From the IMG/VR virus record IMGVR_UViG_3300032293_000024, positions 1 through 20,359 of that record: a DNA stretch of 20,359 bases; one strand, given 5' to 3'. The notes under the pieces were generated by a model. It was not told where the DNA came from. It saw nothing but the letters and a program-made list of their open reading frames with translations, and did no database searches. Within the stretch, counting starts at the first letter, position 1. Each line of letters opens with the position of its first letter. This document shows positions 14,428 to 17,710 of the stretch, piece by piece. Position numbers and translations under genes: made by a program. Source of the DNA: a virus.

Positions 14428-15939
14428 CTAGTAGTAGGCTTCGCGTCGGTGGCTCTTGAACCACTTCGTCGGCTCTGGCTCGTCTGTCGGCAGGCGGATG
14501 AACCCGCCCTGCCTGAACCTCAAGAGTGCCAAAGTCGTCGCGTCAACCAAGTCGTCGTTAGACCCGCTCGGGAAGTCGTTGCACTCCTCGACCACCTCCC
14601 AAGCCCAGCGGCGGTCTGGGACCCAGACTATACCGGAAGAGAAGAGGTCTGATACGGCGTTTACTCTGCTTATCTTGTCCTGACCCTTGCCCGGCGTGAA
14701 CTCTGAGATGGGCACCCCCATCCGACGCATCTCCTGATAGAGCGCCGCACCGTTCGATTTCTTCTCGACGATGAAGGTGTCGGGCTGCCAGTCCTTGTAC
14801 TCCTCCAGCACCAACTGCTTCAGTTCCGGGAACTCCAACCGCTGCTTGATGGAGTTCAACAGGATGATGTTGTAGTTTTTAGTCTCTTCGTTGAAAAACA
14901 CCCCCCAAGTCAGGAGGGCGTTGAAGTCCGACCGGTTGGTCTTTTCTTGGGCAGCGTCGAGCGACAGGATGATGTGTTCACAGTGGGGTGGGTCCTCCTT
15001 GTCCCAGACCTGCCACCACTCGCGCTTGATGAGGGCACCTTCCTCCGAAGTCGGCTGCTGCATGTACTGGGCCTGCCAGTACCGCACGTCCATCGAAGCC
15101 TTCTTGCCCATCAACTCGTCTATGCTCCAGAACTCTGGCCATAGCGGTTTCTCGTTCAGGATTGCCGGGAATTCGACCACTTCCCACTCATCTGCCTCGT
15201 CTTCGCGGGTCATGTGGTCCACGATTTTGCCGGTCAGGTCCATCTTCGACCACCGGGTCATCACCACGATAATTGAGCCACCCGGCATCAGTCGCTGGAC
15301 AGGGCCTGACTGGAACCACTCCCATGCTGGCTCGAATACGTCTGCGCGACCTTGTTTAGCTTCCTGTTCAGAATGAGGGTCGTCAATAATAAAGAGATCG
15401 GCACCACGGCCAGCAAGAGCGCCGCCAACGCCAATAGCGAAATACTCACCGTTAAAATTCGTACCCCAACGAGACGCAGACTTGCTGTCGGCTTGGAGAG
15501 ATACATTGGGGAAGATGTCACGATACGACTCCGAACCGACCAAGTTACGCACCCGACGACCGAAGTTCACCGCCAAATCGGCGGTGTGGGACGCCATGAT
15601 GACCTTTTTCTGCGGGTTTTTGCCTAAGAACCAAGCAGGGGCTAGGTACGAGATCATCTCGCTCTTGCCATGACGCGGAGCGATGTTGACGATGACTCTT
15701 CTCTTCTTGCCTGCCTCGATATCCTCGAAGATTTTAGCCAATCTCTGATGGTGCGGACCCACTTTGTAGCCCGGATAGACGTGCTGGATGAAGTCTAGGA
15801 ACGAATCTTTGCCCAACTTCTGCGTGATCTGGGTCTGATACTGCTTAAGAAGCTCAGCGACACGCCGTTTTTCCTTCTCCGGCATGGTAGGAAGGGCAGT
15901 TTTCAGCTTTTCGAGGCTTTCAGGCGTCAGTTGCAGCAC
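14428..15939 (-). CDS. terL: Terminase large subunit (TerL)
   Basis: This 503-residue packaging motor has both expected domains. The ATPase carries Walker A APRHGKSE (residues 87-94), Walker B LFIIDDPHSE (182-191) and a TRW coupling motif (228-230). The C-terminal RNase H-fold nuclease shows SLDAA (D328), IVEKKSNG (about 390-397) and NDDLVDAT (D462, D463, D466), which would bind metal and cut the concatemer. It pumps DNA into the procapsid through the adjacent portal. The start is a GTG overlapping the upstream gene by 20 bases with a weak ribosome site; an ATG at 15885 is an alternative. All key residues are present. Confidence 0.95.
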   Translation of the reverse strand: MLQLTPESLEKLKTALPTMPEKEKRRVAELLKQYQTQITQKLGKDSFLDFIQHVYPGYKVGPHHQRLAKIFEDIEAGKKRRVIVNIAPRHGKSEMISYLAPAWFLGKNPQKKVIMASHTADLAVNFGRRVRNLVGSESYRDIFPNVSLQADSKSASRWGTNFNGEYFAIGVGGALAGRGADLFIIDDPHSEQEAKQGRADVFEPAWEWFQSGPVQRLMPGGSIIVVMTRWSKMDLTGKIVDHMTREDEADEWEVVEFPAILNEKPLWPEFWSIDELMGKKASMDVRYWQAQYMQQPTSEEGALIKREWWQVWDKEDPPHCEHIILSLDAAQEKTNRSDFNALLTWGVFFNEETKNYNIILLNSIKQRLEFPELKQLVLEEYKDWQPDTFIVEKKSNGAALYQEMRRMGVPISEFTPGKGQDKISRVNAVSDLFSSGIVWVPDRRWAWEVVEECNDFPSGSNDDLVDATTLALLRFRQGGFIRLPTDEPEPTKWFKSHRREAYY

Positions 15940-16471
15940 TTTTCTCGCCTACAACGCGGTACTCGATGCCCTCAAGCACCGACATAAGCTCCTTTTCGAC
16001 CTCTTCGATAGGCTTGACCACGTGTGTGACCTCACTTCGCTTCTTGAAAGCGTCCACGCCGTCTACTTCGCCTAGCTTAGTCAGGGCTTGGAGGCGAGTC
16101 TTGCTGTCCTTCGCAGTTTCAATCTCTTTGACCAGCCCTGTTACCACGTAATTTTTAAGATCCGCAAGGTCATCTACAAGCGCATGGTTCATCTGTTTGA
16201 CCATGCCAGCTAAAAACGCAATCATTTCATTGGGATATATCGCGTAATCCACCTTGGTCTTGGGGTCTTCGACCATTTTACGGGCGACTTCGTGTGCGAG
16301 CGCACTGTCCGAATCATTTGGGATGATTGGCTGCCCTGATACATCAGATAAAAACTTGATCGTCCGCGCCCGCATCTCCAACTCCTGTGCAGGAGTCAAG
16401 TCAGGCAACGCCTCCGCCGCGTTTGCCGGAAGCGCAAGGTTCTCTTCTATGTCTAGGACAAGTGGCTGCAT
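15920..16471 (-). CDS. Terminase small subunit candidate
   Basis: The 183-residue protein precedes and overlaps TerL, the usual place of the DNA-recognition subunit. It reads LPDLTPAQELEMRARTIKFL near the N-terminus, then PNEMIAFLAGMVKQMNHALV and a central helical region, and TRLQALTKLGEVDGVDAFKK and KPIEEVEKELMSVLEGIEYR at the end. It is mostly helical and acidic, and no classical helix-turn-helix is obvious. I start at the ATG at 16471; an ATG at 16501 adds ten mostly hydrophobic residues. Neither has a good ribosome site. The TerS assignment rests on gene order and on a general memory of such proteins before TerL. Confidence 0.65.
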   Translation of the reverse strand: MQPLVLDIEENLALPANAAEALPDLTPAQELEMRARTIKFLSDVSGQPIIPNDSDSALAHEVARKMVEDPKTKVDYAIYPNEMIAFLAGMVKQMNHALVDDLADLKNYVVTGLVKEIETAKDSKTRLQALTKLGEVDGVDAFKKRSEVTHVVKPIEEVEKELMSVLEGIEYRVVGEKSAATDA

Positions 16472-16481
16472 TGTTGCGAAA

Positions 16482-16509
16482 TATATACCAATAAAGGCCA
16501 TGGTACCAA
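16482..16509 (-). promoter_or_regulatory. Weak candidate promoter of the leftward late operon
   Basis: On the minus strand TTGGTA (16509-16504), a 16-base spacer and TATATA (16487-16482) precede the ATG at 16471. The -35 box matches 4 of 6. The predicted start would leave an almost leaderless message, so this is only a candidate. Confidence 0.3.
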
Positions 16510-16519
16510 ATTTGATACC
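16502..16519. promoter_or_regulatory. Imperfect palindrome at the late operon start
   Basis: GGTACCAAATTTGATACC matches its own inverse complement in 8 of 9 positions per half. It overlaps the candidate -35 box and lies immediately upstream of the ATG at 16501, a position suited to an operator. Confidence 0.45.
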
Positions 16520-16680
16520 GGGGGGGTCCTATATACGAGGGGGGTGGGGTCAGCCTAGCCAGAATTTGAAAAAGGTCTGGTGATTTGTGTGGATCAAAGC
16601 GGGGCGGGGCGAGCGCGGGACTCCGAATCGTCAGCGGGGTGTCCGGGTACGGTGGGGTCGGGTCTGGCCCGTTTCGGCGG

Positions 16681-16767
16681 CGGGGTCGGCGCGGCGGACA
16701 AGGTGAGCCGGGCGGACGGGACGGCCTAGCGGTCGGGGTCGGCGCGGCGGACGGGATGGCCTAGCGG
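16681..16767. repeat. GC-rich imperfect repeats with CCTAGCGG
   Basis: CGGGGTCGGCGCGGCGGAC occurs at 16681-16699 and again at 16734-16752. A 21-base unit ending GGCCTAGCGG occurs at 16712-16732 and 16747-16767 with one difference. The units interleave, suggesting past duplication or slippage. Confidence 0.75.
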
Positions 16768-16868
16768 CGCGTATCTGTTTCTGACTGTACCGGGCCGCGC
16801 CATGTCGGGCCGGGTCGGGGCCGCGCTAACCCCGTGGGGATCATGTAGCACCCGGCGGACCGCGCCGG

Positions 16869-16931
16869 GCCTAGCGGGTCGGGCAAGCCTAGCGGGTCGG
16901 GCAAGCCTAGCGGGTCGGGCAAGCCTAGCGG
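16869..16931. repeat. 18-bp tandem repeat, 3.5 copies
   Basis: The unit GCCTAGCGGGTCGGGCAA occurs three times exactly at 16869-16886, 16887-16904 and 16905-16922, followed by half a copy (16923-16931). Each copy contains CCTAGCGG, the box also found at 16725, 16760 and 19396. Confidence 0.95.
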
Positions 16932-16971
16932 ACGGGGTGAGCGGTGCAACAGAATTCTGCTAAATTCCCGC

Positions 16972-17425
16972 TGACACAAGCGCAACCCATTGGCGCGGCT
17001 GGGGTTTTTGGGCCGTGTCCCGGCCTTGTGTCAAAGGTAGATTCTAGCAACACAAGGTAAAGCATTGAAATACAAGGGAAAAAACCGGGTCTGTGCCGTT
17101 GTGTCAGCAAAATTGGGGGGGCGGGGGGAAATGCAGTAGCGCGACGGGATGAAAAAGGCACCGCCGCAAGTGTCCCCGAAACTAAAAAACATTTTGCCGG
17201 ACGCTCATTTTTTAAAAATCGCCTTTTTCTGACACAAAACGCCTTTTATATTCTTTATTTATTACTATCTATATCTAATAAAATCAATAACTTACGCCCC
17301 GACACGCCCGGTTTTTCGCAAAAATAAGTAAAGAAAAACCCGCACAAAACTTGACACAAGAAACGCGTAACCTATTGATTTTATTAAACTTTTTTTGTGT
17401 CAGCATTTTTGACCCGCTGACACAA
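16972..17425. repeat. Seven TGACACAA boxes in both orientations (iteron-like)
   Basis: TGACACAA occurs exactly at 16972-16979, 17230-17237, 17352-17359 and 17418-17425. Its inverse TTGTGTCA occurs at 17026-17033, 17099-17106 and 17395-17402. Several copies extend to GCTGACACAAGCG (16970 and 17416). Such density is far above chance for an 8-mer. I noticed no other exact copy in the window. They look like protein-binding sites for a replication initiator or transcription regulator. Confidence 0.85.
17276..17386. repeat. 14-bp perfect inverted repeat with a nested hairpin
   Basis: TAATAAAATCAATA (17276-17289) is the exact inverse complement of TATTGATTTTATTA (17373-17386), 83 bases apart. Inside, GGTTTTTC (17310-17317) and GAAAAACC (17333-17340) can form an 8-bp stem with a 15-base loop, and one TGACACAA box (17352) also lies inside. 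The surrounding DNA is AT-rich, unlike the rest of the window. Confidence 0.8.
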
Positions 17426-17489
17426 GCGGAACAACCCCGGCACAAGACCCCGCCCGGCTAGGCCCGGCCTAAAAATTTCGCGTCCGGGT

Positions 17490-17518
17490 GTGTTGTAGGT
17501 TGTAAAGATATGTATACT
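17490..17518 (+). promoter_or_regulatory. Candidate promoter of the rightward operon
   Basis: TATACT (17513-17518) is a good -10 box, preceded by TG directly. The region 17-18 bases upstream (GTGTTG) is a poor -35. It is placed about 40 bases before the first rightward ATG, where a promoter is expected. Confidence 0.45.
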
Positions 17519-17540
17519 AACTAGGTCGATTCCCTCACCT

Positions 17541-17710
17541 ACCGGAGAACACAACATGACACGCAAGCGAAACAGAAAAGGGACGCACCTAGTCCGCCAC
17601 GCTCTTGCATGGGCCGTGATTTTATTCGGTGTGTTTTTTATCGGAACGGGCCTTGCGGCCTTTCGCACCATCACCCTGCACTAAACCGGAGAACACAACA
17701 TGACACGCAA
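17541..17710 (+). repeat. Duplicated 26-base translation start region
   Basis: The same 26 bases, running from ACCGGAGAACACAAC through ATG and the next codons, occur at 17541-17566 and 17685-17710. Each copy supplies the ribosome site (GGAG) and the first residues (MTR) of a gene. Confidence 0.9.
17556..17684 (+). CDS. 42-residue single-span membrane protein
   Basis: The frame encodes MTRKRNRKGTHLVRHALAWA, then VILFGVFFIGTGLAAF, and ends RTITLH. The positively charged N-terminus followed by one hydrophobic helix of about 20 residues (approximately 17-36) predicts an inner-membrane protein with its N-terminus in the cytoplasm. The ribosome site GGAG lies nine bases upstream, and the same start region is repeated before the next gene. 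It is the first gene of the rightward block. Small early membrane proteins of phages can modify host membranes or block superinfection, but nothing here fixes the role. Confidence 0.65.
   Translation: MTRKRNRKGTHLVRHALAWAVILFGVFFIGTGLAAFRTITLH

Follow-up and report, generated by a model that had tools for sequence, protein, structure and literature searches.

In satellite phage P4 the alpha protein is a primase-helicase, ori and crr carry short boxes of either orientation, and one element of the origin is distant from the gene. Clusters of short boxes around IHF sites are also found near the terminase genes in P1 pac and lambda cosB, boxes on either side of IHF are a usual feature of P1 parS and lambda attP, and the stoperators of mycobacteriophage L5 are repeated short asymmetric repressor sites. 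The origins of pSC101, R6K gamma and lambda are arrays of replicon-specific initiator sites with an AT-rich segment, to which IHF is added in pSC101 and R6K (PMC5043065). Among the SaPI Rep/Cch families are initiators that recognise short repeats in origins, and specific repeat binding resides in the C-terminal domain of Cch2 (PMC7581432).

We describe here an array of short boxes in a stretch of viral DNA of 20,359 bases (the window, a fragment of a virus contig) and its counterparts in related phages. Plasmid iterons are mostly in-phase direct repeats, whereas these boxes are of mixed orientation in a mirror-symmetric layout; L5 stoperators are scattered over the genome, whereas these are confined to one region; the P4 system has a different word and a different helicase family assignment; and unlike the boxes of P1 pac and lambda cosB, the word used here appears to follow neither TerS nor TerL. 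The likeness to SaPI Rep/ori (SaPIbov1) and SCCmec Cch/Cch2 lies in a DUF927-type initiator helicase and in short repeats as candidate origin sites; however, in those elements the origin is directly downstream of the helicase gene, whereas here the two are 15–22 kb apart, and the present phage group differs further in its IHF sites, its mirror-symmetric arrays and an HTH protein encoded on its own beside the helicase gene.

The box array and its setting

A scan of the window found seven exact copies of TGACACAA, four direct and three inverted, at 16972–17425, and none in the remainder of its 20,359 bases. The initial annotation had called seven copies far above chance, and this holds: 0.44 are expected in the window, and none of 100 shuffles reached seven. 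When the local 520 bases were put through 2000 dinucleotide shuffles, TGACACAA occurred 0.014 times on average, and the most frequent 8-mer, whichever it was, averaged 2.1 copies with a maximum of 4. Some matches do extend beyond 8 bases, as had been noted (CCCGCTGACACAAGCGCAAC and CCCGCTGACACAAGCGGAAC agree at 19 of 20 positions, and TTGTGTCAGCA is present twice). The boxes, unlike the palindromic sites of Cro/C1 operators, are asymmetric; they pair at 22–44 bp, and are arranged in both orientations as a mirror layout and not as direct repeats in helical phase; three additional off-word boxes are words used by relatives. The features of the array and its flanks are as follows.

14428–15939, minus strand: terminase large subunit, start of the late operon (PHROG 38, E 5e-101)
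15920–16501, minus strand: F2, terminase-small-subunit-like gene, late-side flank (profile match to L127:20588-21103 of Planktothrix phage Pag-Yong1, E 6e-10)
16972–16979, plus strand: box 1, TGACACAA, outer left, exact match
17026–17033, minus strand: box 2, TGACACAA, exact match
17058–17070, minus strand: IHF-like site TTTCAATGCTTTA, degenerate (differs from WATCAANNNNTTR at one position), read from the sequence
17099–17106, minus strand: box 3, TGACACAA, inner left, exact; aligns with TGGAACAN in four relatives
17107–17229, no strand: box-free centre between the inner boxes (112–132 bp in relatives)
17230–17237, plus strand: box 4, TGACACAA, inner right, exact; in the alignment shared by the closest relative, L017, only
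17236–17295, no strand: candidate unwinding element, the most AT-rich 60 bases (82% A+T)
17282–17294, plus strand: IHF consensus AATCAATAACTTA, one of two exact matches in 20.4 kb
17340–17347, plus strand: off-word box CCGCACAA, the array word of relative L072
17352–17359, plus strand: box 5, TGACACAA, exact; swapped in register to TGGAACAA in relatives
17368–17380, minus strand: IHF consensus AATCAATAGGTTA, the other exact match in the window
17395–17402, minus strand: box 6, TGACACAA, exact; in the alignment
17418–17425, plus strand: box 7, TGACACAA, outer right, exact; in the alignment
17427–17434, plus strand: off-word box CGGAACAA, the array word of some relatives
17438–17445, plus strand: off-word box CGGCACAA, the array word of relative L053/G017
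17556–17684, plus strand: first small ORF (42 aa) of the rightward early operon, read from the sequence

The array occupies a gap of about 1 kb, with a leftward late operon (the TerS-like F2, TerL, portal and capsid) on one side and, on the other, an early operon of small genes that runs rightward. G+C falls from 0.68 at 16501–17000 to 0.46 at 17001–17500, and the ORFs that overlap the array (16925–17161 and 17384–17674) fall in no conserved family; the earlier description of a non-coding GC-to-AT transition is borne out, and no credible gene overlaps the boxes. Adjoining the repeats, from 17236, is the 60-base segment of highest A+T content in the window. The IHF consensus is matched exactly at two sites, both inside the array and beside this segment, and nowhere else in the window. 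The degenerate site at 17058–17070 is in the half of the array in which relatives have an exact or near-exact IHF site. Neither a search of the window for DnaA boxes nor an Rfam scan gave a match.

Two other repeats were seen nearby. Between the array and the terminase operon, positions 16851–16940 hold GC-rich 18-bp tandem repeats (GCCTAGCGGGTCGGGCAA), and the matching place in L018–L020 holds 12–14 copies of an unrelated 9-bp unit (GCCTGACCC...). An exact 26-bp repeat (17541–17566 and 17685–17710) spans, at each of the first two early genes, the ribosome-binding region with the start codon.

Arrays in related phages

Among named collections, the terminase of the window is nearest to that of the group of phages HTVC023P, DSL-LC04 and Pag-Yong1 (roughly 58–65 kb, all less than 60% identical); hundreds of contigs are closer. 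In about 30 related phages a similar array, often with another word, occupies the corresponding position upstream of the terminase operon. Conservation at that place in close relatives extends to the word itself in the four closest, L017–L020, which have TGACACAA 5–7 times upstream of TerL; others have TGGAACAA, GCGTACAA, CCGTACAA, CGGAACAA, CGGCACAA/TGGCACAA or CCGCACAA there, and the general form of the words is about NSRNACAA. These words too are concentrated in the arrays, which hold 12 of the 14 copies of TGGAACAA in G001 and 7 of the 8 copies of GCGTACAA in G013. Our first idea, that each phage has a strictly different word, was softened because several arrays mix words of this form (L053 and G026–G028 do so within one array), and we would now regard the words as preferences within one site family, not as unrelated codes.

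When the array was aligned with those of L066, L067, L069 and L089 (alignment A1), TGACACA was found to be replaced by TGGAACA in register at five boxes; a sixth box is aligned one base off, and the swap is always GAC to GGA. Outside the boxes, identity to these four phages is 55–60%, which is not below that to L018–L020 with the same word (55–57%). Judging from these alignments, the boxes are swapped in concert, with their spacing and inverted-symmetric layout kept. Across words the same spacings recur (inverted 22/23, inverted 42–44, direct 8 or 9 and inverted 55), and these, together with a box-free centre of 112–132 bp, make the whole array mirror-symmetric.

IHF consensus sites are concentrated in the arrays as well. 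In 26 arrays, delimited by their boxes only, there are 45 matches in 16.3 kb, as compared with 8 in 307 kb outside them, an enrichment of about 106-fold that is inflated because some arrays are near-copies of one another; shuffled arrays gave 0.8 matches, and the reversed consensus gave 4. At least one match is present in 23 of the 26 arrays, and host IHF may act at these sites. The minimum of cumulative GC skew lies less than 2 kb from the array in three relatives, at the same place as the divergence of transcription, by which this indication of an origin is confounded.

Pseudomonas phage Rollin, whose F18 relative (see below) is 24% identical, has an array of eight ATGCAA boxes (word TATGCAA). 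Their spacings are 22, 22, 9, 9 and 55, and an IHF site, GTAAGTGGTTGATTTT, accompanies them, which matches the freshwater arrays. A small HTH-like gene lies a short way upstream of the gene for its primase-helicase. Several long palindromes (AAAAGGTAGNAANTTACTACCTTTT) are interleaved with the ATGCAA boxes there (L275:1-600). In Rhizobium phage RHph_TM3_14A the boxes are less clear, and the IHF consensus occurs only twice in 60.9 kb, as an inverted pair 318 bp apart within the AT-rich divergent gap. By word count, 023Pt_psg01, DSL-LC04 and HTVC023P have no comparable array, and F30 (below) was undetected in the stretches of them that were read.

Other repeated elements occur in this region of the relatives. 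CCTTACAA of L053 and L061 was rejected as an array box, being an 18-bp palindrome scattered outside the core array and hence a different element; in these two phages the 18-bp palindrome CCTTACAAGTTTGTAAGG is repeated near the array, at about -3.2, -2.3, -2.2 and -0.8 kb from TerL. Phages with GCGTACAA or CCGTACAA (among them L025, L052, L057 and L077) have another dispersed palindrome, TCCTGACAATGTCAGGA, in 4–6 intergenic copies between -3.5 and -0.9 kb from TerL; these are perhaps operators or promoters.

Genes that follow the box word

We paired the array with the early-operon genes in 24 genomes, defining box class by base 4 (C, A or T). On careful trees of F30 and F18 box class changes twice, which is the minimum; a quick tree of the SNF2 helicase gene F19 also has two changes, and that gene co-segregates equally well. 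F39 and F44 have three changes, polA four, and F13 and F5 five to six (six for F5). F44 adjoins F30 and lacks the signal (between G017 and G056 it is 65% identical, versus 82% for F30). The gene polA, which sits between the array and the F30–F18 module (about 15–22 kb apart in relatives), was rejected as a word-linked gene on its four changes and on its 85–91% identity in phages with different words, in which F30 is 55–62% and F18 43–49% identical. These patterns are suggestive of co-inheritance of box class with the F30–F18 module, and are not statistical proof because the independent switches are few (about two). Pairwise protein identity over all genomes gives a weak separation (AUC 0.54 for F30), and the trees are more telling. 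Since the window contig stops before both genes, F30 and F18 of the window phage are inferred from the same-word relatives G056–G058.

F30 is an HTH protein of 102–103 aa with a Cro/C1 fold (AF2 pLDDT 88), and its Foldseek matches, of high probability and weak E-value, are mostly HTH regulators. Its recognition helix is SRISVYN in phages with TGACACA or GGCACA, SR[NTM]T or similar with GGAACA, and SKTT with CGTACA; G052, in which SKTTVHN occurs with TGGAACA, is an exception that breaks this link. The adjacent gene, F18, encodes an AEP primase fused to a DUF927 helicase (DUF927 E 1e-22, in relatives); a primase joined in this way to an initiator helicase is a trait of SaPI/P4-type replicons. 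F18 matches SaPIbov1 Rep by phmmer (4.7e-9) and Foldseek (8.5e-12), and its Foldseek matches, made with a model of moderate confidence (pLDDT 76, pTM 0.41), also include SCCmec Cch (6e-14) and S-2L PrimPol (3e-6); the structure entries matched in the comparison with SaPI Rep and SCCmec Cch are 8tch and 5dgk. SaPIbov1 Rep and SCCmec Cch are self-loading initiators.

Two other HTH proteins were considered and rejected. F5 (HTH-DUF3310), a candidate binder of the boxes, has six changes on its tree and is up to 94% identical across different words, and the 'helix-turn-helix regulator' of DSL-LC04 has no homologue in the relatives. F5 is itself a fusion of DUF3310 with an N-terminal HTH (L105:11178-11600 and relatives), present in all relatives whose early region was read.

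Origin and other readings of the array

With moderate confidence, we read the array as a replication origin in which the phage initiator and its sites co-evolve. An origin fits best because the array combines putative initiator boxes and IHF sites with an AT-rich segment, because its word is co-inherited with a helicase of the initiator type, and because the GC-skew minimum lies within 2 kb in three relatives. The box-free centre and the AT-rich segment would be flanked by two half-arrays of short asymmetric boxes, mirror images of each other, which host IHF would fold, and the boxes would be bound by the phage's own initiator module (F30, F18 or both), encoded elsewhere in the early operon. 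The initiator complex might then open the AT-rich DNA and let a ring helicase load, perhaps one ring per half-array, which would give forks in both directions under the two divergent operons. We infer this binding, opening and helicase loading, and the binding of IHF, from sequence comparisons. The initial annotation had likened the boxes to the iterons of an origin, and its comparison stands as regards clustered repeats and an AT-rich segment, to which IHF sites and module co-inheritance can be added, but not as regards classic in-phase direct repeats. A site for IHF or HU is a frequent, though not invariable, part of iteron-type origins.

An origin and a set of operators had earlier been thought equally likely; the comparative evidence favours the origin, and an operator role of the same boxes is retained as its main rival. 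Were the region regulatory only, the boxes would be operators of F30 or another phage regulator which, with IHF looping, times the early/late switch. The location between divergent operons, the Cro/C1 fold of F30 and the broad agreement of its recognition helix with the word would all be expected, but a mirror-symmetric spread over 300–500 bp with an AT-rich segment exceeds the needs of simple repression, a simple scan found no convincing sigma-70 promoter inside the boxes, and box class tracks the primase-helicase gene as well as it tracks F30. We consider a solely regulatory region rather unlikely; F30 may have an operator role in addition to the origin.

That the array is a packaging site of the pac or cosB kind, with boxes for the terminase small subunit and bending by IHF, seems improbable. 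It does adjoin the terminase operon, F2 does resemble a small subunit, and Pag-Yong1 has another box array just downstream of the homologous gene. What speaks against it is the lack of an evident link between the word and either TerS or TerL: the N-terminal part of TerS is 92% identical across different words (whole-protein AUC 0.49), and TerL is up to 99% identical across classes, with four changes on 17 genomes and nine on the set of 30 TerL loci. A region-by-region comparison likewise gave no link of F2 to the word; the TerS tree has three changes against a minimum of two, on 17 genomes only, and TerS stays a minor candidate. The Pag-Yong1 array (L127:21236-21620) consists of about eight TGTCATACA boxes directly downstream of the TerS-like gene, and no IHF consensus was seen nearby by eye.

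A partition or site-specific recombination site like P1 parS or lambda attP, both also built from IHF and protein boxes, is very improbable, as neither ParA/ParB nor an integrase was recognised among the proteins scanned, a subset of the genes. Neutral repeats spread by local duplication, to which the GC-rich tandem repeats next door might point, would not be expected to show in-register coordinated word replacement, conserved spacing and IHF sites, and are scarcely credible.

If the array is an origin, the phages of this freshwater group may share one origin architecture and be split into origin-specificity classes in which the word and the HTH/primase-helicase module are inherited together; this we propose only tentatively. 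As word and module would be inherited together though about 15–22 kb apart, a phage of one class would not start replication at the origin of a co-infecting phage of another class. Phages would then have a counterpart of plasmid incompatibility, in which the Cro-fold protein or the primase-helicase sets the specificity. To our knowledge, the origins of most environmental phages are unknown, and the mirror-image box array with IHF pairs and an AT-rich segment between divergent operons is a recognisable signature, found also in a distant Pseudomonas phage. The approximately 30 natural variants, with matched words and candidate initiators, are a data set for finding the residues that set origin specificity, and could be used to ask whether the classes limit exchange between co-infecting phages. 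Two of the relatives form a natural mixed-word experiment: L182 and L184 (G026 and G028) are 97% identical over 4.8 kb and have identical F30 and partly different arrays, the right-hand boxes being CGTACA in one and CGGAACA in the other.
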